Origin: Chloroflexota bacterium | GTDB lineage: Bacteria > Chloroflexota > Dehalococcoidia > Dehalococcoidales > UBA2162 | Length of the DNA stretch: 13,234 nucleotides | Reading direction: 5' to 3' | NCBI GenBank assembly: GCA_016202555.1 | Contig: JACQOL010000103.1 | Span: forward strand, 1 to 13,234 | In this document: piece by piece, positions 3 through 13,010 of the stretch | Layout: every line of letters starts with the position of its first letter | How positions within the stretch are numbered: the stretch's first letter is position 1 | Made by a program: the position numbers and the translations under genes | Notes under the pieces: model-generated | What the model saw: the letters and a program-made list of their open reading frames with translations, nothing else | What the model was told of the DNA's origin: nothing | The model's database searches: none

Positions 3-647
3 AAGAACGAAAGAATAGTATTAGACCCGTTTGTAGGCGTAGGCTCCACAGCTATTGCAGCGGAGGGACTTGGTAAGGTAGGTATAGGTTTAGAAATTTC
101 CCCTGATTTTGCTGATAAAGCAAGGATGAGACCTTGCTCGCATAATATGTTTGATAGTGACGAATTAGGTCAGCGCAGAATCTATAATGCAGATGCCAAT
201 GCTCTTCTCTCTTATGTTGAGCGTGATTCTGTGGACTTGGTGGTTACATCTCCTCCTTATTGGGATATATTACTTCAAAAACGGTCGGCAGATAATAAAG
301 AAATAAGACATTATGGAGATGAATCAGCAGATTTAGGCAAGATTAGAGACTACAGAAAATTTCTGGAAGCTCTATCTGAAATATTTCGTTTAGTATTTGA
401 TGTTATGAAACCAGGAAAATACTGTTGCATAGTAGTGATGGACATAAGGAAAAAGGATAAGTTCTATCCGTACCATTCAGATGTGGCTGAATTCATGCAA
501 GGGATTGGCTTCATCTTTGACGATATTGTAATCTGGGATAGAAGACATGAATACAACCTAATGAGACCCCTTGGATATCCGGCAAAGTTCAGAATAAACA
601 AGGCTCATGAATATGTTTTGATTTTCCAAAAACCAAATACGAAATAA
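3..647 (+). CDS. Amino-type DNA methyltransferase (N4-cytosine or N6-adenine), 5' end missing
   Basis: This gene transfers a methyl group from S-adenosylmethionine to an exocyclic amino group in DNA and is probably the protective arm of a restriction-modification cassette. The frame is open from the left edge, and 214 residues are visible. The SAM-binding motif DPFVGVGST is encoded at about 24-50 and is followed by GIGLEISPDF. The catalytic motif TSPPYW is encoded at 246-263, after VDLVV. The protein ends in HEYVLIFQKP, a usual end for this family. The ATG at 126 cannot be the start because motif I lies upstream in the same frame. Motif I before motif IV is the alpha/gamma order. SPPY is common in N4-cytosine enzymes but does not settle the methylated base. 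The stop codon is 16 nt before the next gene, which suggests an operon. The N-terminus and any recognition domain there lie outside the window. The methyltransferase call is firm; the modified base and target are unknown. Confidence 0.9.
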   Translation, partial: KNERIVLDPFVGVGSTAIAAEGLGKVGIGLEISPDFADKARMRPCSHNMFDSDELGQRRIYNADANALLSYVERDSVDLVVTSPPYWDILLQKRSADNKEIRHYGDESADLGKIRDYRKFLEALSEIFRLVFDVMKPGKYCCIVVMDIRKKDKFYPYHSDVAEFMQGIGFIFDDIVIWDRRHEYNLMRPLGYPAKFRINKAHEYVLIFQKPNTK

Positions 648-663
648 AGTAGCGAGACAAAGA

Positions 664-1575
664 TTGAAGATAATAGATTACCTTGATGGTGATGTTGCGT
701 ACCTACTCGGATTGCTTGTAGCACGTGGTGAATTACAATCGTCCGAAAACGCATATCGTATGATAATACATTTCCCTAAGGGAAGTTTATTGGCAAAAGG
801 GATAAAGGTTCAATTCGATACAGATAAGGAAATTCGACTTGGGATGGAGAAAATCCGAGAACGTCTAATAGAATTGCTCGGTGCGGATATTACCACTGTT
901 GATACTTCAGACAGCATCGACTTGATAGCTAAAATGACTAGAAAAACTATGTCATGGCGGAACATAAATATGCTTTTGGGTGGTGCGACGAGTTTTCCAT
1001 ATTTCGATATACCGGAGGTGTTCTTTGACACCGATACTCCTATCGAATACAAAAGAGAGTTTGTTAGGGGGTATGCAGATGTGGGGGGTAATATAAGACC
1101 TGCAAATGTAGATTGGGCAGGAAGGCATAGGGTGAGACTTGATATACTGAATCATCCAACAAACTGGAAAGTAGGTATGAGACTTTGCCTGCTAATACAA
1201 AACCATCTCAGTGTTCCTGTCCCTGTAATAACATGGGGACACCCAAATATGAACAGGGGATGGCGTGAGCACCAACTTAATATCTATGCTGAGGAATTTA
1301 CTAGTATCGGCTTTTATTTCGATTTCAAACAAGCTGCACTTGAGGAGTTAGCTGATTTTAATAACAAGCATTTCACCACTAAGATTAAGGGTTGTCCTGG
1401 TGCAAGGAAGATTGGAGCCAGGAAGAAAAAAGATAAGGAAGAAAAGAATGGTGAGCGACTTCCTCCGGAATTAGTAGGGAGACATTTTAATGCTTACTGG
1501 CAAGTATGCAGAGCATTGGGTTGCACTAGAAGGCCGAAACCGGATGAACAAATTGAACTGATACCTGAGGTATGA
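664..1575 (+). CDS. LAGLIDADG-fold protein with degenerate active sites, in an R-M cassette
   Basis: This is a 303-residue protein with two LAGLIDADG-like helices. The first is LLGLLVARG at residues 14-22 and the second is VRGYADVGG at 134-142. In active homing endonucleases the eighth residue of each motif is a metal-binding acid. Here these are Arg21 and Gly141, so cleavage activity is doubtful while the DNA-binding fold may remain. The TTG at 664 is taken as start because the first motif precedes the first ATG codon (residue 33). No strong ribosome binding site is seen. A lysine-rich stretch at about 250-263 separates the core from a C-terminal segment. The gene lies 16 nt after a methyltransferase and overlaps the next nuclease gene by ATGA. 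I infer a specificity or accessory subunit shared by its neighbours. The alternative is a decayed homing endonuclease that inserted between M and R genes. The fold call is fairly sure; the role is a guess. Confidence 0.75.
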   Translation: MKIIDYLDGDVAYLLGLLVARGELQSSENAYRMIIHFPKGSLLAKGIKVQFDTDKEIRLGMEKIRERLIELLGADITTVDTSDSIDLIAKMTRKTMSWRNINMLLGGATSFPYFDIPEVFFDTDTPIEYKREFVRGYADVGGNIRPANVDWAGRHRVRLDILNHPTNWKVGMRLCLLIQNHLSVPVPVITWGHPNMNRGWREHQLNIYAEEFTSIGFYFDFKQAALEELADFNNKHFTTKIKGCPGARKIGARKKKDKEEKNGERLPPELVGRHFNAYWQVCRALGCTRRPKPDEQIELIPEV

Positions 1576-2099
1576 AGTTGAATTATGAGACTGAAAAGCA
1601 GATGTATCCAGATGTGTCTATATGGCTACATGAACTATTGAAAGGCAGGTATCAGGCAACGAAATTTGAAGTAAGGGATACGCATGCTGCTCCACTAAAT
1701 GAATATATTACTAGGCATGGACTTCAAGACTACTTTGACGGTGACCAATGGCAGACCTATGATATACGAGTTGATTTAACAGCGTTCGTCAAGAGCAGGA
1801 ATAGTAAAGGGCTAGTATTTGTAGAATGTAAGATTACAAGTGTTACTCTGCTTAATATATCTCAGCTTCTTGGCTATTCAAGGGTAGCTCTACCGCTTTC
1901 ATCGTACTTAATATCTTCAAAAGGTATCGGAGGAAGTGTCCAAAGCTTGATCACAACATACGCCCGCTCAGATATTCTTGAGTACCACTGGGAGAAGGGC
2001 AAATCGTCAAGAAAGATAGTAATTGCTAAGTGGGATTACAGTTCAAAGAGCATAGACTCAACTTCAGTATTACCACCAGGGTCTTCGGGACAATTATAG
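1572..2099 (+). CDS. PD-(D/E)XK nuclease, probable restriction endonuclease
   Basis: This 175-residue protein shows a PD-(D/E)XK core. Asp68 in RVDL follows a beta-strand-like segment, and Glu85-Cys86-Lys87 in FVECK lies 17 residues later, giving the D...ExK catalytic signature for metal-dependent DNA cleavage. The following segment, ITSVTLLNISQLLGYSRVA, fits the helix that usually follows the ExK strand in such nucleases. There is no obvious separate DNA-recognition domain, and the protein is small for a stand-alone Type II enzyme. This fits a need for a partner such as the adjacent LAGLIDADG protein. Its ATG overlaps the upstream TGA (ATGA), so the two are probably translationally coupled. 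Position in an M-X-R order supports a restriction role. It could instead be a nicking or repair nuclease. I do not recognise the exact subfamily. Confidence 0.72.
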   Translation: MKLNYETEKQMYPDVSIWLHELLKGRYQATKFEVRDTHAAPLNEYITRHGLQDYFDGDQWQTYDIRVDLTAFVKSRNSKGLVFVECKITSVTLLNISQLLGYSRVALPLSSYLISSKGIGGSVQSLITTYARSDILEYHWEKGKSSRKIVIAKWDYSSKSIDSTSVLPPGSSGQL

Positions 2100-2179: not shown

Positions 2180-2404
2180 AGGTTGCCACGCGGAGTTTAC
2201 ACTGAACATAGTGAATGGTCTCGTAATGACAAGCTAAAGCAACTATTTACAATTCCTGGCGAAAATACTTTCTCCGGAAGTAGAGAGCCACATTTACCTG
2301 GCGGATGAGCACCGGCACCTCCGCAATAGTAGGATAAATCCGTTGTTTGCAAGATTGATGTATATCTGGTAAGTTTAGCCAGCACAATAATTAATGTTTC
2401 TAAA
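2180..2404. other. Intergenic stretch without a recognisable gene
   Basis: This gap separates the R-M block from the stress-protein gene. Short open frames occur, for example one from 2238 that ends in NPLFARLMYIW before a TAA, but none has a start, a ribosome binding site or a recognised motif. No convincing terminator hairpin with a T-run or paired -35/-10 boxes was found. It may be degraded accessory DNA. Confidence 0.5.
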
Positions 2405-2409
2405 AGGAG
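2405..2409 (+). promoter_or_regulatory. Shine-Dalgarno site that sets the start of the stress-protein gene
   Basis: AGGAG lies 5 nt before the ATG at 2415. An earlier in-frame ATG at 2394 has no such site, and the AGGAG would fall inside its coding sequence. The 2415 start also places the protein start (MFKRILLTLDGSE) where universal stress proteins begin. Confidence 0.8.
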
Positions 2410-2414
2410 AGAGT

Positions 2415-3314
2415 ATGTTTAAGAGAATACTATTAACACTTGATGGTTCCGAAGTATCTGAGATTGTGCTTCCTTACGGGGAGGAATTGGCTGGTAAGTT
2501 GGGTTCTGAGGTGATCTTGTATCATGTACGGGGGCATGAACATTTGCAGCAGGAGCACATGCATCAGATGTATCTTGACAGGTTGGCTGAGACTGTGCGA
2601 AGCAACATTAAAAAAGGCCGGCCAAAGGGCACAGAGGTGAGAGTAACTGCGAAGGTTGAGGCCGGAGAGCCTGCCGAGAGTATCTGTAATCTTGTAGATA
2701 CAAACAAGGTAGATTTGATAATTATGGCTTCTGTTAGCACCGCTGGTCTTAAGGTCGGTAAAATGCTGGGCAGCGTGACCGACCAGGTATGCCGAACGGT
2801 GCCCATACCGGTGATGCTTATCCGACCTCAGAATATCAAGCAGACTGGCAAAAAGAGACGATTGGTCAACCATATCCTGATACCTCTGGATGGCTCCGAG
2901 CTCAGCAAACTGGCACTCCCTATCGGAGAGGAACTAGCCACTAAATTAAAGGTTCGGACTACTCTCTTTCGGATGGCAACTATGATTCGCATCTATGATG
3001 ATGGTTCGGGGTACACCGCGTATGTTGATTATACGACATTGAATGAGGATGAGAAGAGACGGGTTACTGATGAAATGATTGCCCTGAAGAAAGAACTGAA
3101 AGAGAGAGGCCTCAAGGTAACCCATCTGGTAACCTCTGGTTTTGATGCCGCTAATGAAATCATTGAGGTATCAAAGAAGATTGACGCTGACCTGGTGGTC
3201 ATGTCCACTCACGGGCAATCTGGATTAGGCCGTTGGGTCTTCGGCAGCGTCGCTGAAAAAGTCCTGCGCCATGGAGAGACACCTCTGTTGCTGGTGCACG
3301 CCAGAGTCAGGTAG
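2415..3314 (+). CDS. Universal stress protein, two tandem UspA domains
   Basis: This is a 299-residue cytoplasmic protein made of two UspA folds, residues about 3-140 and 151-299, each opening with a beta strand and an Asp-Gly-Ser-Glu turn (Asp10 and Asp159). The second domain keeps most of the nucleotide-binding loop: His266-Gly267, nine residues, then Gly277-Ser278. The first domain has ASVSTAG in place of the usual STHG segment and keeps only the late Gly-Ser, so it probably binds ATP poorly. UspA proteins bind ATP or AMP and support survival under stress, but the exact target is rarely known. The start at 2415 has a strong AGGAG site. The gene ends 76 nt before a P-type ATPase on the same strand. 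Pairs of Usp and cation transporter genes are common, so a role in tuning or protecting that pump is plausible but inferred. Confidence 0.93.
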   Translation: MFKRILLTLDGSEVSEIVLPYGEELAGKLGSEVILYHVRGHEHLQQEHMHQMYLDRLAETVRSNIKKGRPKGTEVRVTAKVEAGEPAESICNLVDTNKVDLIIMASVSTAGLKVGKMLGSVTDQVCRTVPIPVMLIRPQNIKQTGKKRRLVNHILIPLDGSELSKLALPIGEELATKLKVRTTLFRMATMIRIYDDGSGYTAYVDYTTLNEDEKRRVTDEMIALKKELKERGLKVTHLVTSGFDAANEIIEVSKKIDADLVVMSTHGQSGLGRWVFGSVAEKVLRHGETPLLLVHARVR

Positions 3315-3390
3315 CAATGTAAAGAATATGGTGAAGTGGTTTTCTCTCTGAACAAAATCGAGGCTTTCACAACATGAGGTAACCTGAGAT

Positions 3391-5928
3391 ATGGCAACCT
3401 CAGCTAGCCAATCTGATAGGTCATTTTGGGCTTTTTCTTCTGATGATGTCTTAAATCAGCTCGGAGCAAACCGAAACGGATTAACCCGAGTTGAGGCTCA
3501 GAAAAGGCTTTTGCGTTTTGGCGCTAATCTTCTGAAACCGAAGAGAAAAACCGACACACCAACTCTCTTCCTAAACCAGTTCAGAAGTCCGCTTGTTATC
3601 ATTCTGATTACCGCTGCCATATTAGCCTTTTTTCTGGGGGAAGAGATTAATGCTGGCATAATACTGGTGATTGTGGTTACCAGCGGCTTACTGGGATTCT
3701 GGCAAGAGAGAGGCGCCAGTAATGCTGTCCAAAGACTGCGGGCTATCATTCAACTAAAAGTATCTGTATTTCGTGGAGGGAATCCCAGTGATGTTCCGGC
3801 TGAAGAAGTTGTGCCGGGGGATGTTATCTTACTTTCCGCCGGCGATGTTGTCCCTGCGGATTGCCTGATACTTGAGTCCAAAGACCTCTTTGTGGACGAA
3901 GCTACGCTTACCGGTGAGACTTACGCTGCCGAAAAATCGGTGGGGTTATTACCGGAGGAAACGCCCATCAGCCACCGGACGAACTCACTCTTTATGGGGA
4001 CCCATGTTATCAGCGGTAGTGCCAGAGCCGTGGTAGTGCACACTGGTCAAGGTACCGAATTTGGTAAGATTGCCGAGCATTTAAGGCTCAGGCCTCCGGA
4101 GACCGAATTTGAGCACGGAATAAAACAGTTCGGCTATTTTCTCATGATTGTCACCTTGGTGCTAGTAATGGCCATCTTTGCCACCAGCGTCTATTATAAA
4201 CGGCCCCTGCTGGACTCGGTACTTTTCTCTCTGGCTCTGGCGGTAGGGCTGACCCCGCAGTTGTTGCCGGTTATCATCAGTATCAACCTGTCCCACGGGG
4301 CCAGACGTATGGCAGAGCAAAAAGTTATCGTCAAACGGCTAGCCTCCATTGAAAACTTCGGCAGTATGAACATACTCTGTTCTGATAAGACCGGGACTTT
4401 GACTGAAGGAATCATGCATTTGCATTCCTTCGTTGGTACGGAGGGAAATGAAAATGAGAAAGTATTATTGTACGCTTATCTTAATTCTTCCTATGAAACC
4501 GGTTATAAAAATCCTATTGATGAAGCCATTCGAGCTCATGGTTATCTGGATATATCTGCCTATCATAAGTTGGATGAAGTGCCCTATGATTTCATTCGCA
4601 AAAGGTTAAGCATTTTAGTCTCAACTGGAGATGGGAATATGGTAATCAGCAAAGGCACCTTGCCGAATCTGTTTTCCATCTGTTCTCAGGCCGAGACAGC
4701 CGGCGGCATCGTTAATCTAACCAGCCTGCAAGAGAAGCTACAGGTCCAACTTGAGGACTTTAACCGCCGGGGATTTCGTGTACTGGGACTAGCCTACCGA
4801 CCTTATAATACTGGCAGCACTATCACTAAAGAAGATGAGAAAGGTTTTACTTTCCTGGGTTTCATTATCTTCAATGACCCACCTAAATCTGGAGTCGCCG
4901 ACACTATTAAAAAATTAAAACAGCAGGGGATTTCCTTAAAAGTCATTTCCGGGGATAACCGCCTGGTGACGGCCCATATCGGTGAACAGGTTGGATTATC
5001 AACAGCACGTATTCTGACTGGTTCGGAGCTTCTTCGGATATCGGACGCAGCTTTAGTCAGGCAAGCGAATGAAGTAAGCCTTTTTGCCGAGATAGAACCA
5101 AATCAGAAACAACGCATAATTGTAGCACTCAAGAAATCAGCCAATGTGGTTGGTTATATTGGAGATGGAATCAACGATGCTCCGGCACTTCATGCTGCCG
5201 ATGTTGGTATTTCAGTGGACAGCGCCGCTGATGTTGCCAAAGAAGCCGCTGATATTGTACTACTGGAAAAAGATTTGGGTGTCCTTGAGCGTGGTGTTCG
5301 GGAAGGCAGAATAACATTTGCCAATACTCTCAAATATGTCTTTATGGCTACCAGTGCTAATTTTGGCAACATGTTTAGTATGGCTGGAGCCTCCCTTTTT
5401 CTATCTTTCTTACCTCTTCTACCCAAGCAGATCCTGCTCACTAACTTGCTGACCGATTTGCCGGAGATGACCATCGCTACTGATAGTGTGGATGCGGAGT
5501 TAGTTGAGACACCACGACGCTGGAATATCAGGTTCATCCGTAACTTTATGATAACCTTTGGTATTTTAAGCTCCCTATTTGACTATCTAACTTTTGCCAT
5601 ACTTCTCTTCATATTGCATCTGAGTACAGATATGTTCCGGACAGGTTGGTTTATTGAGTCGGTTATTTCGGCATCGCTGGTCGTGCTCGTAATACGGAGC
5701 CGGCGGCCATTCTACAAAAGCCGCCCAAGCCGGTATCTATTGATTGCCGCTCTAGTCATTTCCGTAGTGACGGTTATTATCCCATTTACTCCTATGGGTG
5801 GGATATTTGGCTTTACCCCTTTGTCTTTGGTATTTCTTTTACTGATAGGAATAATCGTGGTACTCTATATTGCAGCAGCTGAAGTGGCTAAAAAGGTGTT
5901 CTACCAGCGGATGAGGTTTAAATACTAA
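3391..5928 (+). CDS. MgtA-like (P3B) magnesium-type P-type ATPase
   Basis: This 845-residue membrane pump is driven by ATP and most likely imports Mg2+. It has an N-terminal cation-ATPase domain, two membrane helices at about 65-110, the actuator loop with TGET at 174-177, and helices M3/M4 at about 245-300. The phosphorylation motif DKTGT follows, with Asp332 as the phosphorylated residue. The nucleotide-binding domain, the hinge GDGINDAP at 591-598 and six C-terminal helices complete it. The sequences around M4 (VIVKRLASIENFGSM) and after the hinge (NLLTDLPEMTIATDSVD) match MgtA/MgtB rather than calcium or heavy-metal pumps. It lacks the longer N-terminal tail of enterobacterial MgtA (about 898 residues). 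In M4 the usual TPEMLP is TPQLLP, so Gln290 replaces a conserved Glu. A GAGG site lies 11 nt before the ATG. Mg2+ is the best guess for substrate. Confidence 0.92.
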   Translation: MATSASQSDRSFWAFSSDDVLNQLGANRNGLTRVEAQKRLLRFGANLLKPKRKTDTPTLFLNQFRSPLVIILITAAILAFFLGEEINAGIILVIVVTSGLLGFWQERGASNAVQRLRAIIQLKVSVFRGGNPSDVPAEEVVPGDVILLSAGDVVPADCLILESKDLFVDEATLTGETYAAEKSVGLLPEETPISHRTNSLFMGTHVISGSARAVVVHTGQGTEFGKIAEHLRLRPPETEFEHGIKQFGYFLMIVTLVLVMAIFATSVYYKRPLLDSVLFSLALAVGLTPQLLPVIISINLSHGARRMAEQKVIVKRLASIENFGSMNILCSDKTGTLTEGIMHLHSFVGTEGNENEKVLLYAYLNSSYETGYKNPIDEAIRAHGYLDISAYHKLDEVPYDFIRKRLSILVSTGDGNMVISKGTLPNLFSICSQAETAGGIVNLTSLQEKLQVQLEDFNRRGFRVLGLAYRPYNTGSTITKEDEKGFTFLGFIIFNDPPKSGVADTIKKLKQQGISLKVISGDNRLVTAHIGEQVGLSTARILTGSELLRISDAALVRQANEVSLFAEIEPNQKQRIIVALKKSANVVGYIGDGINDAPALHAADVGISVDSAADVAKEAADIVLLEKDLGVLERGVREGRITFANTLKYVFMATSANFGNMFSMAGASLFLSFLPLLPKQILLTNLLTDLPEMTIATDSVDAELVETPRRWNIRFIRNFMITFGILSSLFDYLTFAILLFILHLSTDMFRTGWFIESVISASLVVLVIRSRRPFYKSRPSRYLLIAALVISVVTVIIPFTPMGGIFGFTPLSLVFLLLIGIIVVLYIAAAEVAKKVFYQRMRFKY

Positions 5929-5957
5929 TTCATAACCATTCTACTATCGAGTATACT
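5929..5957 (+). promoter_or_regulatory. Possible promoter for the peptidase-lipoprotein pair
   Basis: TATACT at 5952-5957 could be a -10 box, with a weak TTCATA at 5929-5934 and a 17-nt spacer. The -35 match is poor, so this is tentative. It lies just after the ATPase stop and about 100 nt before the peptidase gene. Confidence 0.3.
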
Positions 5958-5981
5958 TCATAACTGGCAGATTCTAAGAGC

Positions 5982-6008
5982 AAAGTGTGATATTAAAGTG
6001 TGATATTA
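5982..6008 (+). repeat. Tandem 13-bp direct repeat upstream of the peptidase gene
   Basis: AAAGTGTGATATT occurs at 5982-5994 and again directly at 5995-6007, with the next A also matching. The repeat period is 13 bp, just over one helical turn. It lies in the 130-nt gap between the ATPase and the peptidase gene, 51 nt before the latter's ATG. It may be a regulator binding site or a replication-slippage duplication; the sequence alone cannot decide. Confidence 0.8.
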
Positions 6009-6058
6009 TAGTATTAGTATTGTTTATGATGCTGTGGTCGTAGCTGTAGGGAGAAATA

Positions 6059-7246
6059 ATGAAAAAGAAAATCGCCATACTTACGATTCTTATTTGCTTG
6101 TCTCTGAGTGCCTTTGCCCCGGTATTGGTGCATGCTCAGATTACAATTAAGTTACAAAGCTCTTCCGTTCAGGCTGATTTTCCGTCAAAGCTAACCTTTA
6201 ATCTTTCGGCTAAGGACGATGTTAATCTGACTGATATCCGTCTCCGCTACACCATAAATCGTGAGAGCTTCGCTCAAGCATTCAGTGAAGCTTATGTTGC
6301 ATTCACTCCAGCGGCCACCGTTAGTGTTAATTGGGTCTTAAACATGCAAAAGATTGGTGGTTTGCCACCAGGCGCGACGGTTAAGTACTGGTGGGTAATT
6401 AAGGATGCAGCCGGTAATCGGCTTGAGACGGCACCGCAACAAATTGACTTTAATGATAGTCGGCACCTGTGGCGTAATGTGTCTAAAGGTACGCTAACGC
6501 TCTACTGGTATCAGGGTGATGACGCATTTGTCAACCAGCTGATGACTGCGGCGCAGCAGGGATTAGCCAGTCTTGAAAAGAATACTGGAGCACAACTGGT
6601 AAGACCAGTCAGGATTTATATTTACGCCAGTGCCCGTGATTTACAAGGCTCGATGGTTTTTCCCGCGGAGTGGACCGGAGGGGTATCCTTTACCGAGTAT
6701 GGGATTATTGCTATCGGCATCGCGCCGAGTAATCTCGACTGGGGATTGAGAGCTATTACGCATGAACTAACTCATCTTGTCATCCATCAAATGACATTTA
6801 ACCCTTATAACGGGTTACCGACCTGGCTGGACGAAGGGTTGGCGGTTTACAACGAGGGGCCGCCGGACCCGACCTTTACGGCTCTATTAAATCAAGCAAT
6901 TGCTGATAACCAGCTTACTTCGGTGCGTAGTCTGAGCAGTCCATTTTCAGCTTACGGTGATGAAGCCACGCTTTCTTATGCAGAGAGTTACAGTGTGGTC
7001 AACTACCTCATTACCACCTATGGACAACCAAAGATGCTTGAATTGCTGAATACCTTCCAGCAAGGTAGCACCTATGACGGCGCTTTTCAGGAGGTATATG
7101 GCTTTAATATGGACGGACTTTATACCCTGTGGAAGCAGCAAGTAATACCGAAGAGGGCCAGTAGATTAGAACCAGTAACCCCATCGTTTCCAGTTAGATT
7201 TGGGCTGGCTCTTCAAGGTTTAATGCCGCTATGGGGTGTGAGCTAA
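6059..7246 (+). CDS. Secreted HExxH metallopeptidase, peptidase MA-like gluzincin
   Basis: This 395-residue exported protein probably acts outside the membrane on peptides or proteins. Residues 1-26 form a signal peptide with a lysine start, a hydrophobic core and likely cleavage after VHA. Residues about 28-140 look like an immunoglobulin-like beta domain (PSKLTFNLSAKDD, VKYWWVIKDAAGN). The catalytic domain has His235-Glu236-x-x-His239 for zinc and Glu259 in WLDEGLAVY 20 residues on as third ligand, the gluzincin arrangement of the peptidase MA-like group. AGGGAGA at 6048-6054 is a good ribosome binding site. No C-terminal membrane anchor is clear. The gene is 3 nt from a solute-binding lipoprotein gene, so the two are almost certainly co-transcribed. 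Release of peptides for uptake is a reasonable but unproven joint role. Zinc peptidase fold is firm; substrate is unknown. Confidence 0.88.
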   Translation: MKKKIAILTILICLSLSAFAPVLVHAQITIKLQSSSVQADFPSKLTFNLSAKDDVNLTDIRLRYTINRESFAQAFSEAYVAFTPAATVSVNWVLNMQKIGGLPPGATVKYWWVIKDAAGNRLETAPQQIDFNDSRHLWRNVSKGTLTLYWYQGDDAFVNQLMTAAQQGLASLEKNTGAQLVRPVRIYIYASARDLQGSMVFPAEWTGGVSFTEYGIIAIGIAPSNLDWGLRAITHELTHLVIHQMTFNPYNGLPTWLDEGLAVYNEGPPDPTFTALLNQAIADNQLTSVRSLSSPFSAYGDEATLSYAESYSVVNYLITTYGQPKMLELLNTFQQGSTYDGAFQEVYGFNMDGLYTLWKQQVIPKRASRLEPVTPSFPVRFGLALQGLMPLWGVS

Positions 7247-7249
7247 GAG

Positions 7250-8869
7250 ATGAAGAAGACCTTAGCATCGATACTCCTTGCCACTTTACTGTCTGTCACT
7301 TTGCTTGCCGGATGTACAGCACCGCTAGCAAAACCATCTACGCTGACTCCAACCCAAACTACTCCGAGTCCTACGGCTCAGGGGACTCTTAATCTCTTTG
7401 GGGATGACCCGACTACTCTCGACCCCGCCCTTGCTGGAGATGCCACCTCCCATGATTATATCGTTCAGATTTTCAGCGGCCTGGTTCGCTTGGATGATAG
7501 CCTCCAGCCGGTCCCTGACATTGCTAAGAGTTGGGACATCAGTCCCGATGGCATGACATATACCTTTCATCTGCGCAACGATGTAAAATTCCAGGACGGC
7601 CGTCAGGTCAAAGCCGATGACTTCAAATTCTCTTTGGAGCGGGCTTTTGACCCGGCCATCGGTTCGACTACGGCGCTCACTTACCTTGGTGATATTATCG
7701 GCGTAAAAGATATGTTGGAGGGTAGTGTTAAAACGATTAGCGGCGTTAAGGTTGTTGATGATTATACCCTTCAGGTGATTATAGATTCACCTAAATCTTA
7801 CTTCTTGTCTAAAATGACTTACCCCACTGCCTTTGTCATCGACAAGAATAACGTGAATTCAGGTAAGGACTGGTGGCTCACCCCTAACGGTACCGGCCCC
7901 TTCAAACTCACTCGGTATACTAAACAGCAGCAACTTGTTTTGGGGAGGAATGACTTATACTACGGCGTCAAAGCTAAAGTTACCTCGGTGGTATTCGGTA
8001 TCCTGTCGGGCAACCCGATGGACTTATATGAAACCGGTAAGATTGATGTTGTTGGTGTTTCACTGCCTTATATTGAGCGGGCATCTGACCAGTCTGGACC
8101 ATTTGCCGGCCAACTTGCTCAGGCACCGGAGCTTAGTATTAGTTATATCGGTTTCAACTCGGCTAAGCCACCTTTCGACGATGTTAATATCCGTCTCGCC
8201 TTCAGCTATGCCGTCGATAAAGACAAGCTGGTTTCGGTAGCTTTTAAGAACATGGTGCAGCGTGCCGATGGTGTTCTGCCGCCGGGTATGCCGGGCTACA
8301 ATAAAAATCTGGCTGGGCTGGGTTTTGATGTTAATAAGGCAAAAGACTTGATTGCGAAGTCGAAGTATGGCTCGGTGGCTAATTTGCCGTCGATAACCCT
8401 CACCACTTCCGGGGAGGGTGGTAGGGTTTCCAATCTTCTGGAGGTAATTGCCTACCAATGGAAGCAGAACCTGGGTGTAGATGTTACCATAAGGGCATTA
8501 GAACCGGAGCGATATTTCTATAATCTCAAATCCGAATTAGACCAGATGTATGATTTCGGCTGGATTGCCGATTATCCGCATCCCCAGGATTTCCTTGATA
8601 TCCTCTTCCACAGCGGTGCCGACTATAACTATGGTGGCTATGCTAATGCCGATGTCGATACTCTCCTTGATAAAGCGGGCCGGGGGCAGGACTTCAATGC
8701 CACTGCGGCACTATATCAGCAAGCTGAGCAGAAACTGGTTGATGAAGCGGCTATGTTACCTCTCTTTTTTGCTCAAAACTACATCCTCGTGAAGCCCTAT
8801 GTCAGCGGTTATAAACTTAACCCACTCGGCTTTGTCATGCTGAACAATGTCTCGCTTGGTTCTCACTGA
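7250..8869 (+). CDS. Peptide-type ABC transporter substrate-binding lipoprotein (SBP family 5)
   Basis: This 539-residue lipoprotein should capture oligopeptides or a similar ligand on the outer face of the membrane and deliver it to an ABC permease. It has a lipoprotein signal with the lipobox LAGC and lipidated Cys22, then a Thr/Pro-rich linker at about 23-45. The family signature follows at about 88-117, reading DIAKSWDISPDGMTYTFHLR and then KFQDG. Later parts (FDDVNIRLAFSYAVDKDKL, DYPHPQDFLDILFHS) and the length are typical of DppA/OppA-like proteins. The ATG is 3 nt after the peptidase stop, with only weak ribosome binding sequence, so translation may depend on the upstream gene. No permease or ATPase genes are adjacent, so it must share a transporter encoded elsewhere. 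Ligands of this family also include nickel and sugars; peptide is an inference. Confidence 0.93.
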   Translation: MKKTLASILLATLLSVTLLAGCTAPLAKPSTLTPTQTTPSPTAQGTLNLFGDDPTTLDPALAGDATSHDYIVQIFSGLVRLDDSLQPVPDIAKSWDISPDGMTYTFHLRNDVKFQDGRQVKADDFKFSLERAFDPAIGSTTALTYLGDIIGVKDMLEGSVKTISGVKVVDDYTLQVIIDSPKSYFLSKMTYPTAFVIDKNNVNSGKDWWLTPNGTGPFKLTRYTKQQQLVLGRNDLYYGVKAKVTSVVFGILSGNPMDLYETGKIDVVGVSLPYIERASDQSGPFAGQLAQAPELSISYIGFNSAKPPFDDVNIRLAFSYAVDKDKLVSVAFKNMVQRADGVLPPGMPGYNKNLAGLGFDVNKAKDLIAKSKYGSVANLPSITLTTSGEGGRVSNLLEVIAYQWKQNLGVDVTIRALEPERYFYNLKSELDQMYDFGWIADYPHPQDFLDILFHSGADYNYGGYANADVDTLLDKAGRGQDFNATAALYQQAEQKLVDEAAMLPLFFAQNYILVKPYVSGYKLNPLGFVMLNNVSLGSH

Positions 8870-8988
8870 TTGGACTATTCAAGACTCGGATGCAATTCCT
8901 GCCCGGTTACATTCAGTAAAGACAAGCCCAAAGGTGCCTTTTCGTGGATAGTATTGTCTTGATGTTTTGCCCAAATAACCGGCGACTT

Positions 8989-9018
8989 TCGACTCATTCC
9001 TGCCAAAAATGGTATAAT
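8989..9018 (+). promoter_or_regulatory. Promoter of pcrA with extended -10, predicting a leaderless mRNA
   Basis: A perfect TATAAT at 9013-9018 is preceded by TGG, forming an extended -10 element. TCGACT at 8989-8994 is a 4-of-6 match to the -35 consensus with an 18-nt spacer. The ATG lies 8 nt after the -10 box, so transcription should start at or within a few bases of the start codon, and there is no room for a ribosome binding site. Confidence 0.7.
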
Positions 9019-9026
9019 AGTTACTA

Positions 9027-11237
9027 ATGGATATTTTGGCTTCGCTTAACCCGGCGCAGAGGGCAGCAGTAGAGACGATTAGCGGTCCGGTGCTGATTCT
9101 GGCTGGTCCGGGCAGTGGCAAGACCAGGGTGATTACCCATCGTATTGCTTACCTGATTAAAGTCGTTGGCATCAACCCCCGCCATATTATGGCTGTTACC
9201 TTTACCAACAAGGCGGCCCGGGAGATGGCGAGTCGATTATTTGGTAAGAGTGAAGAAGACTCTGCCGCTCCGCTTCTTGATTGGAGCATGCGGGATATGG
9301 TCACCCTGGGTACTTTTCACGCTATCTGCTCCCGTATTCTGCGCCAGGATGGTCAGGCTATCGGTATTGACCACCATTTTGTCATCTACGACGATACCGA
9401 CCAGCTCAGTTTGCTCAAACGTAGCCTTCAGGAAATAGGACTTGACCCCAAGCAATATACTCCTCAGGCAATCGCCTCTGCCATTTCGGCGGCAAAGAGT
9501 CATCGGCTGACCCCGACCGAATCAATCCAGCGCGGTCGCAGCTATTTCGATGAGGTGGTAGGGCGGGTCTACGAGCATTACCAGCAATTACTGGGGGAAA
9601 ATAATGCCCTGGACTTTGATGATTTGCTGATGAGGACGGTGCAGCTTTTCAGGAAGAGCCCTGAGATTTTGTCCCGCTACCAGTCGAGATACCAGCACCT
9701 TATGGTGGACGAGTTTCAGGATACTAATCTGGTGCAGTATGAGTTGATAAAGATGTTGGGTGGTAAGTACCGCAATATCTGTGTTGTTGGCGACCCTGAC
9801 CAGTCAATCTACTCCTGGCGATTTGCTGACCTGCGCAACATCCTGAGCTTTGAAAAGGACTACCCTGAGACAAAACTGGTCCTGCTGGAGGAGAACTATC
9901 GCTCAACTAAGATGCTTCTGGAAACAGCCTCGAATATCATCTCAGTCAATCAGCAACGTAAACCGAAAAACCTGTGGACGAATAACGAGTTGGGGGAGCC
10001 GGTAACTGTTGTTGAAACCTATACCGAGCAGGAGGAAGCCCAGTTTGTCGTTAATGAGATAGAGCGTTTGGTCGGTCGGGGGCAGGTTAGCCTCGGTGAT
10101 TGTGCCGTGATGTATCGCACTAATGCCCAGTCAAGAGCTCTTGAGGAAGCTTTTATGCGCTACGGTACGCCCTATAAGCTGGTCGCCGGTACCCGTTTCT
10201 ACGAGAGACGGGAGGTTAAGGATATCACTGCCTATTTCCGGCTTATCCAGAACCCTAACGATAGTATTAGCCTGTTACGAATAATTAATGTTCCCGGGCG
10301 TGGTATCGGACAGCAGACCCAGGTCAGACTGGCTAGCTGGGCAAAATCGCTGGGGGTCTCACCCTATCAAGCGTTACAGCTGGTGGCTGAGCCAGCGACG
10401 GCAGAGACAGCTACTGAGCTGAACTTTAATGTTCATACCAGGCGGGTGCTAACCGATTTTCTTAGCCTGATGGAAGATTTTGTTAGCGTAAGTCGCCAGT
10501 TAAACCTGGTTGATTTGTTTGACCTAGTAGTCAAGGGCTCCGGTTATAGGGAATATTTGCTGAGTGAGAGCGACGGAGAGGGACGCTGGGACAATATTAT
10601 GGAACTGCGGACGGTTGCCCAGCAGTATCGTGATTTACCGCCAGGGGAGGGATTAGCTGCCTTTCTGGAGGGGGTAACCCTGGTATCTGATGTCGATACA
10701 CTTGATGAAAGTGCCTCAGCGGTGACCCTGATTACCCTGCATCAGGCTAAAGGACTGGAGTTTGGGGTGGTCTTTATCGTTGGTATGGAGGATGGCATCT
10801 TGCCTCACTTCCGCTCTTTTGATAACCCTGTCCAGATGGAGGAGGAGAGGCGACTCTGCTATGTCGGTATCACCCGGGCTAAGCAGAGGGTGTATCTGGT
10901 GCGGGCCTTTCGTCGCAGCCTGATGGGACGCAGTATGGTCAGTCAACCATCGCGTTTTTTAAGTGACATCCCATCGCACCTGACTTCGGCTAGTGGTCGT
11001 TGGCTAGGCGCCGAGAGGCGGGTAGCCCCATCAATCTATTCCTGGGATACAGAAACTGCCCCCAGCCTGTCCACCTTAGAATTTAAGGCGGGCGAACGTG
11101 TGCACCACATCCAGTTCGGTAACGGGGTGGTGGTCAGTTGCCAGCCAGTGAAGGATGATGCCGAGGTCGTCGTCGCCTTTAATGGTGGCGTCAAAAAACT
11201 CCTCTTGAGCTTCGCTAACCTGGAGAAGGCAGCCTGA
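9027..11237 (+). CDS. pcrA: UvrD/PcrA-type superfamily 1 DNA helicase
   Basis: This 736-residue enzyme unwinds DNA 3' to 5' using ATP and serves nucleotide excision repair, mismatch repair and removal of stalled complexes. Motifs run in order: Q motif LNPAQRAAV (7-15), Walker A GPGSGKT (27-33, Lys32), VDEFQDTN with Asp228-Glu229, GDPDQSIYSWRF from 255, ENYRST, TLHQAKGLEF, and YVGITRAKQR from 612 with the arginine finger in TRA. A C-terminal tudor-like domain at about 688-735 (ERVHHIQFGNGVVVS) marks the PcrA/UvrD group rather than Rep, which lacks it, or RecB/AddA. The start is fixed: an in-frame TAG lies at 9018-9020, and the Q motif begins at residue 7. There is no ribosome binding site because the promoter abuts the ATG. 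mutL follows after 54 nt with its own promoter. PcrA and UvrD names are interchangeable here. Confidence 0.96.
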   Translation: MDILASLNPAQRAAVETISGPVLILAGPGSGKTRVITHRIAYLIKVVGINPRHIMAVTFTNKAAREMASRLFGKSEEDSAAPLLDWSMRDMVTLGTFHAICSRILRQDGQAIGIDHHFVIYDDTDQLSLLKRSLQEIGLDPKQYTPQAIASAISAAKSHRLTPTESIQRGRSYFDEVVGRVYEHYQQLLGENNALDFDDLLMRTVQLFRKSPEILSRYQSRYQHLMVDEFQDTNLVQYELIKMLGGKYRNICVVGDPDQSIYSWRFADLRNILSFEKDYPETKLVLLEENYRSTKMLLETASNIISVNQQRKPKNLWTNNELGEPVTVVETYTEQEEAQFVVNEIERLVGRGQVSLGDCAVMYRTNAQSRALEEAFMRYGTPYKLVAGTRFYERREVKDITAYFRLIQNPNDSISLLRIINVPGRGIGQQTQVRLASWAKSLGVSPYQALQLVAEPATAETATELNFNVHTRRVLTDFLSLMEDFVSVSRQLNLVDLFDLVVKGSGYREYLLSESDGEGRWDNIMELRTVAQQYRDLPPGEGLAAFLEGVTLVSDVDTLDESASAVTLITLHQAKGLEFGVVFIVGMEDGILPHFRSFDNPVQMEEERRLCYVGITRAKQRVYLVRAFRRSLMGRSMVSQPSRFLSDIPSHLTSASGRWLGAERRVAPSIYSWDTETAPSLSTLEFKAGERVHHIQFGNGVVVSCQPVKDDAEVVVAFNGGVKKLLLSFANLEKAA

Positions 11238-11255
11238 TTTCTTTTCGGAAAACCC

Positions 11256-11284
11256 TTGACATTTTACACGTAAGCGTGTATATT
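11256..11284 (+). promoter_or_regulatory. Strong sigma-70 promoter of mutL, predicting a leaderless mRNA
   Basis: A perfect TTGACA at 11256-11261 is followed by a 17-nt spacer and TATATT at 11279-11284 (5 of 6). The mutL ATG starts 8 nt downstream of the -10 box, so the expected transcription start falls at or next to the A of ATG. No Shine-Dalgarno sequence is possible in between. Confidence 0.8.
11265..11280. promoter_or_regulatory. Perfect inverted repeat inside the mutL promoter, possible operator
   Basis: TACACGTAAGCGTGTA consists of two 6-bp arms around TAAG. It fills the spacer between -35 and -10 and touches the first bases of the -10 box, so a bound dimeric repressor would block the polymerase. 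It is too short and lacks a following T-run to act as a terminator for pcrA. The cognate regulator is unknown. Confidence 0.55.
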
Positions 11285-11291
11285 TAACTTA

Positions 11292-13010
11292 ATGCCAATT
11301 AAACTTTTAGACCCGGAAGTAGTTGCCCGGATTGCCGCTGGCGAGGTGGTGGAGCGGCCGGCTTCGGTGGTTAAGGAGCTGGTGGAGAACTCGCTGGATG
11401 CCGGAGCGAGCCAGATTGCGGTTGAGGTACGGGGTGGTGGGGTGAATCTGATTCGGGTAACCGATAACGGCTCTGGTATTCCTGCCGCCGAACTGGAGCT
11501 TGCCTTCCAGAGGTATGCCACCAGTAAGATAGCCGGAATTGATGACCTGGAGACCATTGCCAGCCTCGGTTTTCGGGGTGAAGCCTTGCCCAGTATCGCT
11601 GCCGTTGCCCAGGTGGAGATGGCTAGCTGCTCCGGAGGCGATTCATCGGGTAATTATCTTCACCTGCGGGAGGGCGCGGTCAGTAACCGGGGTAAGCAGG
11701 GACATCCTCAGGGGACGACGGTGACGGTGCTAAATTTGCTCCATAACGTGCCAGCCAGATTAAAATTCCTCAAGTCGCCGGCGACGGAGAATAGCCACAT
11801 CGCTAATGTCGTCAGCCAGTACGCTCTCGCCTTTCCCGAGGTTAAGTTCACTCTTTCCGCTGATGAGCGAATGGTGCTGAGAACTCCGGGCAGTGGTCAG
11901 CTCATCGATAGCATTATTGAGGTCTATGGTCTTAATGTAGCCCAGAATATGCTGGAGCTGGGCAGGGGGGACCGGGTCTGGGAAAGCGGGTCGGCGACTC
12001 TTTCACCCCGGATAACCGGTATGGTCAGCTCGCCAGCAGTAAGTCGCTCCAATCGGGATTATCTCAGCTTTTTTATCAACCGTCGCTGGATAAGTAGTCG
12101 GCTGCTCTCCTGGGCAGTGGAGGAAGCCTACCATGGCTTGCTGATGACCGGGAAACACCCCCTGGCGATTATCAACATCACACTATCACCCAGGGAGGTG
12201 GATGTTAATGTCCATCCCACCAAAACCGAGGTCAAGTTCCAAAACGAGCGGCTGGTTTTTAGCTCTGTCCAAAAAGCAGTCAGGCGGGCTCTTCTTGAAC
12301 TGGCCCCGGTACCTAGGATTGAAGAGGTAGCTATCGCTTATGAATCCCAGGCAGTATCAAGACAACCGCGGTCAGTATCGAGCGGAACCAGTCACCACCC
12401 GGCCAGTCTGATTCCGTTAGCTCAGTCAACTCCTGCCTTCGCCCTGCCGGCGCTGAGATTACTGGGACAGCTTGCGACGACCTATATTATCGCTGAAGGG
12501 TCTGACGGATTGTATCTCATCGACCAGCACGCTGCTCATGAGCGGATTCTTTTTGAGCAAATAAAGAGCCAGAGAGCCAAGCAAGCCATCGAGGTTCAGG
12601 GACTGCTGGTACCGGCAACGCTTGAGATTAACCCCCAGCAGGACGCCGTTCTGAAGTCTCATTACGAGAACCTGGTTGAATTCGGCTTCTCAATTGAGCC
12701 TTTTGGTGAACGAAGCTACCTGGTGCGGGCGGTGCCTGTCTGGCTTCATCAGCAGGACTGGGCGGGAGCCCTCCGGGAATTGCTGGATTTACCGTTAGGG
12801 AGGAACGAAGGGGATTGGCTGGAAAAAGTAGGAATCACTATTGCCTGCCACAGTGCGGTGAGAGCCGGGCAGGCATTAACTGATGACGAAATGCGTGAGC
12901 TGCTACGGCAACTGGAGCTGGTAGCTCTGCCCAATACCTGTCCTCACGGTCGACCCACCATGATTCACTTAAGCTCTGGGCAGTTAGAGAGGGAGTTCGG
13001 TAGAAGCTGA
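11292..13010 (+). CDS. mutL: DNA mismatch repair protein MutL, endonuclease type
   Basis: This 572-residue protein couples mismatch recognition by MutS to strand incision and excision. The N-terminal GHKL ATPase shows ELVENSLDAG with catalytic Glu29, DNGSGI, ATSKI and GFRGEALPSIA. The ribosomal-S5-like domain ends near residue 335 (DVNVHPTKTEVKF). A variable linker spans about 340-385. The C-terminal domain holds the metal-binding nuclease motif DQHAAHERILFE at 411-422 (the DQHA-x2-E-x4-E pattern), ACHSAVRAGQ at 518-527 and CPHGRPT at 550-556. It should therefore nick DNA itself, as in bacteria without MutH. The start aligns residue for residue with E. coli MutL over the first 38 positions, so ATG 11292 is certain even though no ribosome binding site precedes it. 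An in-frame TAA lies at 11271-11273. Its neighbour pcrA encodes the helicase class that works with MutL. No mutS is present in the window. Confidence 0.97.
   Translation: MPIKLLDPEVVARIAAGEVVERPASVVKELVENSLDAGASQIAVEVRGGGVNLIRVTDNGSGIPAAELELAFQRYATSKIAGIDDLETIASLGFRGEALPSIAAVAQVEMASCSGGDSSGNYLHLREGAVSNRGKQGHPQGTTVTVLNLLHNVPARLKFLKSPATENSHIANVVSQYALAFPEVKFTLSADERMVLRTPGSGQLIDSIIEVYGLNVAQNMLELGRGDRVWESGSATLSPRITGMVSSPAVSRSNRDYLSFFINRRWISSRLLSWAVEEAYHGLLMTGKHPLAIINITLSPREVDVNVHPTKTEVKFQNERLVFSSVQKAVRRALLELAPVPRIEEVAIAYESQAVSRQPRSVSSGTSHHPASLIPLAQSTPAFALPALRLLGQLATTYIIAEGSDGLYLIDQHAAHERILFEQIKSQRAKQAIEVQGLLVPATLEINPQQDAVLKSHYENLVEFGFSIEPFGERSYLVRAVPVWLHQQDWAGALRELLDLPLGRNEGDWLEKVGITIACHSAVRAGQALTDDEMRELLRQLELVALPNTCPHGRPTMIHLSSGQLEREFGRS

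Follow-up and report, generated by a model that had tools for sequence, protein, structure and literature searches.

The 13,234-nucleotide contig JACQOL010000103.1 from a Chloroflexota bacterium (assembly GCA_016202555.1), which in its full length is the window analyzed here, carries near its beginning three genes that encode an amino DNA methyltransferase (M), a LAGLIDADG-fold protein (LAG) and a small putative PD-(D/E)XK-type nuclease (NUC). Our analysis indicates, with a probability of roughly 60%, that these genes constitute a Type II-like restriction-modification (R-M) system in which the restriction enzyme is split into LAG and NUC, and in which the methylase is self-sufficient and exchangeable. 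LAG would derive from a LAGLIDADG meganuclease, domesticated and without either of its catalytic acids, and would bind the target site; NUC, encoded by the overlapping next gene, would be brought to the DNA by LAG and would cut it; and M would protect the host copies of the same site, recognizing it unaided. What we infer in this scheme is that LAG binds DNA and associates with NUC, that the DNA is cut and foreign DNA restricted, and that M and LAG have matching specificities.

The window is an entire contig (G000:C72) from a 955 kb assembly that is 62% complete, and the coordinates of the genes and their motifs are listed in Table 1. M, LAG and NUC form one same-strand operon, with 16 nucleotides between M and LAG and an ATGA overlap between LAG and NUC, so the arrangement of three genes in a single orientation that was noted in the preliminary description of this locus is borne out. 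As in Type II R-M systems, the cassette places a methylase gene beside a nuclease gene.

The predicted structure of LAG, a confident model, has a LAGLIDADG fold with two pseudo-symmetric alpha-beta halves and the LAGLIDADG helices. We compared the positions of the two catalytic acids in 240 proteins, drawn from the branch of the family represented in the window (branch 1) and from a distant branch (branch 2). Position 21 is arginine in all 118 branch-1 rows that have a residue there and asparagine in 120 of 120 branch-2 rows, while position 141 is alanine, glycine or serine in 120 of 120 branch-1 rows and threonine in 120 of 120 branch-2 rows. Since an acid is absent from both positions throughout the 240 proteins (two of which have a gap at the first), LAG is very probably not a nuclease, judging from these sequences. 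With the catalytic residues gone, the role of specificity subunit for a small nuclease, which the preliminary description had suggested for LAG, appears to be its most likely job. The LAGLIDADG fold is also what would be expected of a free-standing selfish homing endonuclease inserted between M and the restriction gene. We rejected this explanation, which we consider extremely unlikely, because the catalytic acids are missing in all 240 proteins and because LAG, unlike a mobile insertion, always occupies the place between M and NUC, in branch 1 as in branch 2; moreover, no intact M-NUC pair without LAG was present in the loci examined. An intein or splicing maturase was rejected as well, since neither of the flanking genes, M and NUC, is split in the window.

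The tail of LAG contains conserved cysteine and histidine residues in branch 1 (C244 in 119, and H274, C282 and C287 in 118 each, of 120 proteins), and the three cysteines are missing in branch 2, so that a putative zinc site is possible in branch 1 only. In the LAGLIDADG fold the strands of the sheet face the DNA, and in LAG the second half has far better conserved strands than the first half (mean identity 0.82 vs 0.58, Mann-Whitney p 0.0005). This contrast might reflect one constant and one variable half-site, although that is a guess.

Searches of Pfam, NCBIfam, PADLOC and PHROGs gave no significant match to LAG or NUC: in NCBIfam, NUC gave a single match at E 0.1 and the LAG protein of locus L037 one at chance level (E 0.0065; 16 bits, where the cut-off is 300), and in PHROGs only weak matches (E 0.035-0.057) were recovered. 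Searches of PDB sequences with LAG and NUC, both as single sequences and as profiles, reached a best E-value of 0.54. The family itself is large, with 512 database matches to the window LAG and 2136 to the branch-2 profile, two sets that were not compared with each other; all source names shown among the 120 matches listed per set read "hypothetical protein". NUC had 126 matches, and the difference from the 512 of LAG may be explained by the shorter NUC query.

For NUC, a structure model suggests a putative PD-(D/E)XK-type fold. The protein possesses the D...(D/E)xK residues characteristic of these nucleases, and D68, E85 and K87 are invariant both in a 33-row alignment (A2) and in a 9-row alignment spanning both branches (A4). 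Of its 175 residues, 121 align to the cleavage domain of the Type IIS enzyme PaqCI. The matched region of NUC starts no more than 20 nucleotides from the LAG stop codon in 32 of 35 loci (the exceptions being L010, L019 and L026), and this proximity fits subunits that are made together.

Gene order was examined in the 30 loci recovered by a scan of genome contigs. M lies upstream of LAG in 29 of them, the remaining locus (L024) beginning inside LAG at a contig edge, and NUC lies downstream in 27, of which 25 are full length, one (L009) is cut by a contig edge and one (L019) has an in-frame stop. Of the other three, L027 is decayed and retains a fragment of NUC, and L004 and L030 stop at a contig edge. 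Counting decayed copies, every LAG locus long enough to judge has an upstream M and a downstream NUC, which upholds the view of the middle gene as integral to the cassette. According to record titles, mostly of metagenome-assembled genomes, cassettes occur in Chloroflexota, Acidobacteriota, Poribacteria, Armatimonadota and Hydrothermota. Their spread is rare and patchy: in genome samples that each include their own center genome, LAG was found in 2 of 400 Chloroflexota (NUC in 3, the third, G284, at a contig start), 12 of 84 Poribacteria, 5 of 251 Armatimonadota and 1 of 247 Acidobacteriota genomes, the last being the center genome itself. Two further Armatimonadota loci (L146 and L147) show the same gene order, one of them with NUC cut by the contig edge. 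No viral contigs with a branch-1 LAG were found.

An extra gene separates LAG from NUC in L026 (8918-9604). It belongs to a second family of small proteins, with an EYK motif, whose members also occur after M alone (L139, 4114-4728) and after NUC (L024, 1063-1728); judged by eye, this family is a possible PD-(D/E)XK candidate. In L022 a broken second copy of NUC (6324-6915) lies upstream of an intact M-LAG-NUC cassette.

Branch 2 was recovered by tblastn, which identified adjacent relatives of LAG and NUC, with 26-31% identity, in four records: a pair of Lactiplantibacillus plantarum plasmids that share their protein accessions, and two Heliusvirales phages of human fecal origin. A search with the NUC query A4 retrieved four viral contigs in addition, all four with an adjoining LAG. 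The LAG query A5 independently retrieved one of these contigs and the query A7 only the other three; A7 had been built from three of the four contigs, so its search is not an independent test. Altogether, LAG adjoins NUC in 8 of 8 branch-2 records (two plasmids with the same proteins, two phages and four viral contigs). The methylases around this pair are of different types. In the plasmids and Heliusvirales phages, M is a fusion of approximately 700 amino acids that combines an EcoRI-type adenine methylase with a C5 methylase, each covering a near-full Pfam model; viral contigs L047 and L048 encode EcoRI-type and C5 methylases as separate genes, with a NOV_C-domain gene between the methylases and LAG in L048; and L049 and L051 encode an Eco57I/N6-type methylase together with one of the window type. 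It follows that LAG and NUC are the constant core and the methylase is the variable part. The two different methylase domains of branch 2 would suit an asymmetric site, of the kind that a pseudo-symmetric LAGLIDADG monomer would be expected to read. An accessory gene of L051 (6481-6930) encodes a 149-aa protein that is 35% identical to the N-terminal part of the NOV_C-domain protein of L048 (2868-3944), and L049 encodes a protein resembling it (5199-5648).

The relationship of the methylase to LAG bears on whether LAG is a specificity subunit shared by NUC and the methylase, like HsdS of Type I or S of Type IIB systems, as had been envisaged when LAG was thought possibly to guide the methylase too. 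M of the window type is core-sized, with no obvious large recognition domain. Its motif order in relatives is X-I-IV, and it is circularly permuted with respect to 2zie, as the halves of profile A6 align to 2zie in exchanged order and no large insert is added; these features would be compatible with a shared subunit. In three Poribacteria remnants (G446, G450 and G466), however, M is full length. What is left of LAG in them covers profile positions 3-104, 3-38 or 3-31 (out of 305), and what is left of NUC covers 124-165, 40-165 as two pieces, or 129-166 (out of 172). M pairs are still under constraint: where dS was computable, the ratio of nonsynonymous to synonymous substitution rates (dN/dS) is 0.055-0.133 for M pairs that include a remnant vs 0.046-0.124 in the intact pairs printed, a comparison limited by the history that the genes shared before the deletion. 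Strong M matches (above 390 bits) number 14 in the 84 Poribacteria genomes, and 12 of these are accompanied by LAG or a LAG remnant; in G416 M stands alone and in G470 it is followed by a different, nuclease-like small gene with the EYK motif. M without LAG is therefore in the minority (2 of 14), contrary to what would be expected if M and nuclease pairs usually lacked the middle gene. The branch-2 EcoRI-type and C5 methylases, covering near-whole Pfam models, should carry their own recognition parts. Guidance of the methylase by LAG is consequently not supported, and a shared subunit appears unlikely. The remnants also fit an R-M system, the loss of which is described as requiring restriction to decay first (PMC9957025), and restriction lost before the methylase is the pattern seen here.

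We compared the trees of the three genes over 27 loci with all of them present, namely the window, 24 genome-scan loci and two viral loci; 6 of the 33 scanned loci were excluded since a gene was missing or too short, and M of the window is partial. Distance correlations are 0.838 for M-LAG, 0.815 for M-NUC and 0.837 for LAG-NUC, compared with 0.637, 0.479 and 0.526, respectively, in the best of 2000 shuffles. Of 24 splits, M and LAG share 13, M and NUC 8, and LAG and NUC 9. The M-LAG correlation and above all the larger number of splits shared by M and LAG than by LAG and NUC favor a shared subunit, the latter being its best point, but common descent of linked genes would also yield such correlations. 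The good agreement of the trees speaks against LAG moving independently of M and the nuclease, although the methylases vary both between the branches and within them. M of L049 and L051 is placed among Chloroflexota M (support 86/79, on a long branch), with the corresponding LAG far outside, which is suggestive of a methylase swap.

LAG might instead be a regulator, either a controller protein or a WhiA-like transcription factor, that times the expression of a NUC recognizing its site by itself. Known R-M controllers are helix-turn-helix (HTH) proteins of approximately 80 amino acids, and LAG is unlike them, with 303 amino acids, a LAGLIDADG fold and no HTH-type Pfam match. The 16-nucleotide gap after M leaves little room for a promoter of its own, and LAG stays with NUC whichever methylase is present. 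A controller protein would nevertheless be lost along with the nuclease just as a recognition subunit would, and we consider a regulatory role quite unlikely rather than negligible. Even less likely is a role outside defense, such as post-segregational killing that stabilizes plasmids or prophages, or DNA repair, with LAG as a sensor of DNA structure. The match of NUC to PaqCI equals its repair matches in quality, a methylase accompanies LAG and NUC wherever the locus reaches far enough, and the pattern of loss is that of a restriction half.

Several points weigh against a restriction enzyme divided between LAG and NUC. That LAG binds DNA is only an inference, and the protein lacks a strongly basic character (net charge -2 for residues 1-120, 0 for 121-240 and +6 for 241-303). 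Small PD-(D/E)XK enzymes, e.g. PvuII, can recognize DNA unaided, so NUC need not require LAG. No trustworthy LAG-NUC fusion is present among the proteins found; a 491-aa candidate (P0101) was not counted because its junction reads as out-of-frame letters and looks frameshifted. The joint loss of LAG and NUC in the remnants is weak proof of joint function, as a single deletion across the LAG-NUC junction could account for each, and L061 retains most of NUC, in two pieces. Moreover, 12 of the 84 Poribacteria genomes have a NUC unaccompanied by LAG, and in G284 NUC stands at a contig start that would hide any LAG. The 23 Poribacteria genomes with NUC comprise 11 with cassettes or remnants and these 12, in which NUC (L129-L137, L143-L145) sits at one chromosomal place, between a HEAT-repeat gene, adjacent in all 12, and two oxidoreductase genes, adjacent in 11 (the twelfth contig ends); it is full length in six and broken or partial in six, and the 12 look like one orphan lineage. 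Finally, in WhiA, a known protein with a degenerate LAGLIDADG domain, it is the HTH domain that binds DNA specifically, and the surface of the LAGLIDADG part is altered (PMC3781837).

The cassette comes closest to Type II R-M systems, above all to Type IIS enzymes with separable domains, such as PaqCI and FokI. In these the recognition domain is fused to the rest of the enzyme, while here recognition would be the task of a separate LAGLIDADG-fold protein. The large subunit of the heterodimeric restriction enzyme R.BspD6I carries its own nuclease domain, which LAG lacks. The S subunits of Type I and Type IIB systems (HsdS, BsaXI S) are dedicated specificity proteins, as proposed for LAG, but consist of HsdS-type domains and serve methylation as well as cleavage, whereas M here does not seem to depend on LAG. 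In Pfam, M, LAG and NUC of the window matched neither HsdS nor helicase families; by this measure, the cassette has neither an HsdS-like subunit nor a restriction protein with a helicase or fused R-M, as Type I and Type IIB systems do.

To our knowledge, no other restriction enzyme has a recognition subunit with a homing-endonuclease fold, so that, if the proposal is correct, this would be the first such recruitment and the reverse of the usual selfish role of the fold. The chances are about even that a disarmed meganuclease reads the site for cleavage only, that restriction and modification thereby recognize one common site by way of unrelated proteins, and that LAG-NUC is a portable restriction module which has been combined with several types of methylase, in a family whose branch-2 profile alone matches more than 2000 proteins. 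It would then become testable how the two activities stay matched in specificity with unrelated proteins recognizing the site, and the family, which is unannotated and found on plasmids and phages, is a possible source of new two-part site-specific nucleases. WhiA (DUF199) is, like LAG, a natural LAGLIDADG protein without catalytic residues (PMC3781837), but it is a transcription factor with an HTH domain and is not known from R-M operons. The cassette would also be a natural counterpart of engineered fusions of PvuII to inactive I-SceI (Fonfara et al. 2012), in which an inactive meganuclease is reported to aim a restriction nuclease (PMC3857828); there the same logic was built by hand in an artificial single chain, while the cassette consists of separate genes. 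No description of such a system was found among the papers listed by searches of the open-licence PMC literature for the system and its parts, as judged from titles, the openings of abstracts and selected passages.

Table 1. Positions of the cassette genes and their motifs in the window.
Feature	Position	Strand	Evidence
M, amino (N6/N4) DNA methyltransferase, 5' end lost at contig edge	3..647	+	PF01555 1.3e-23
M motif I, DPFVGVG	24..44	+	window sequence; D, P, F, G, G invariant in profile A6
M motif IV, TSPPYW	246..263	+	window sequence; invariant in profile A6
LAG, proposed recognition subunit of 303 aa; LAGLIDADG fold, catalytic acids absent	664..1575	+	
LAG first LAGLIDADG-like motif, YLLGLLVARG	700..729	+	helix 9-21 in model; R21 (724-726) at the place of the catalytic acid
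LAG second LAGLIDADG-like motif, FVRGYADVGGN	1060..1092	+	helix 127-141 in model; G141 (1084-1086) at the place of the catalytic acid
LAG C-terminal tail part with conserved C244, H274, C282, C287	1393..1524	+	residue census
NUC, proposed cleavage subunit of 175 aa; putative PD-(D/E)XK-type nuclease	1572..2099	+	
NUC putative active-site residues D68 (1773-1775), E85 (1824-1826), K87 (1830-1832)	1773..1832	+	invariant in A2 and A4

The rest of the window (2394-13010) is occupied by ordinary neighbors, namely genes for a two-domain universal stress protein, a P-type cation ATPase, a Peptidase_MA-like protein, a solute-binding protein, a UvrD/PcrA helicase and MutL.
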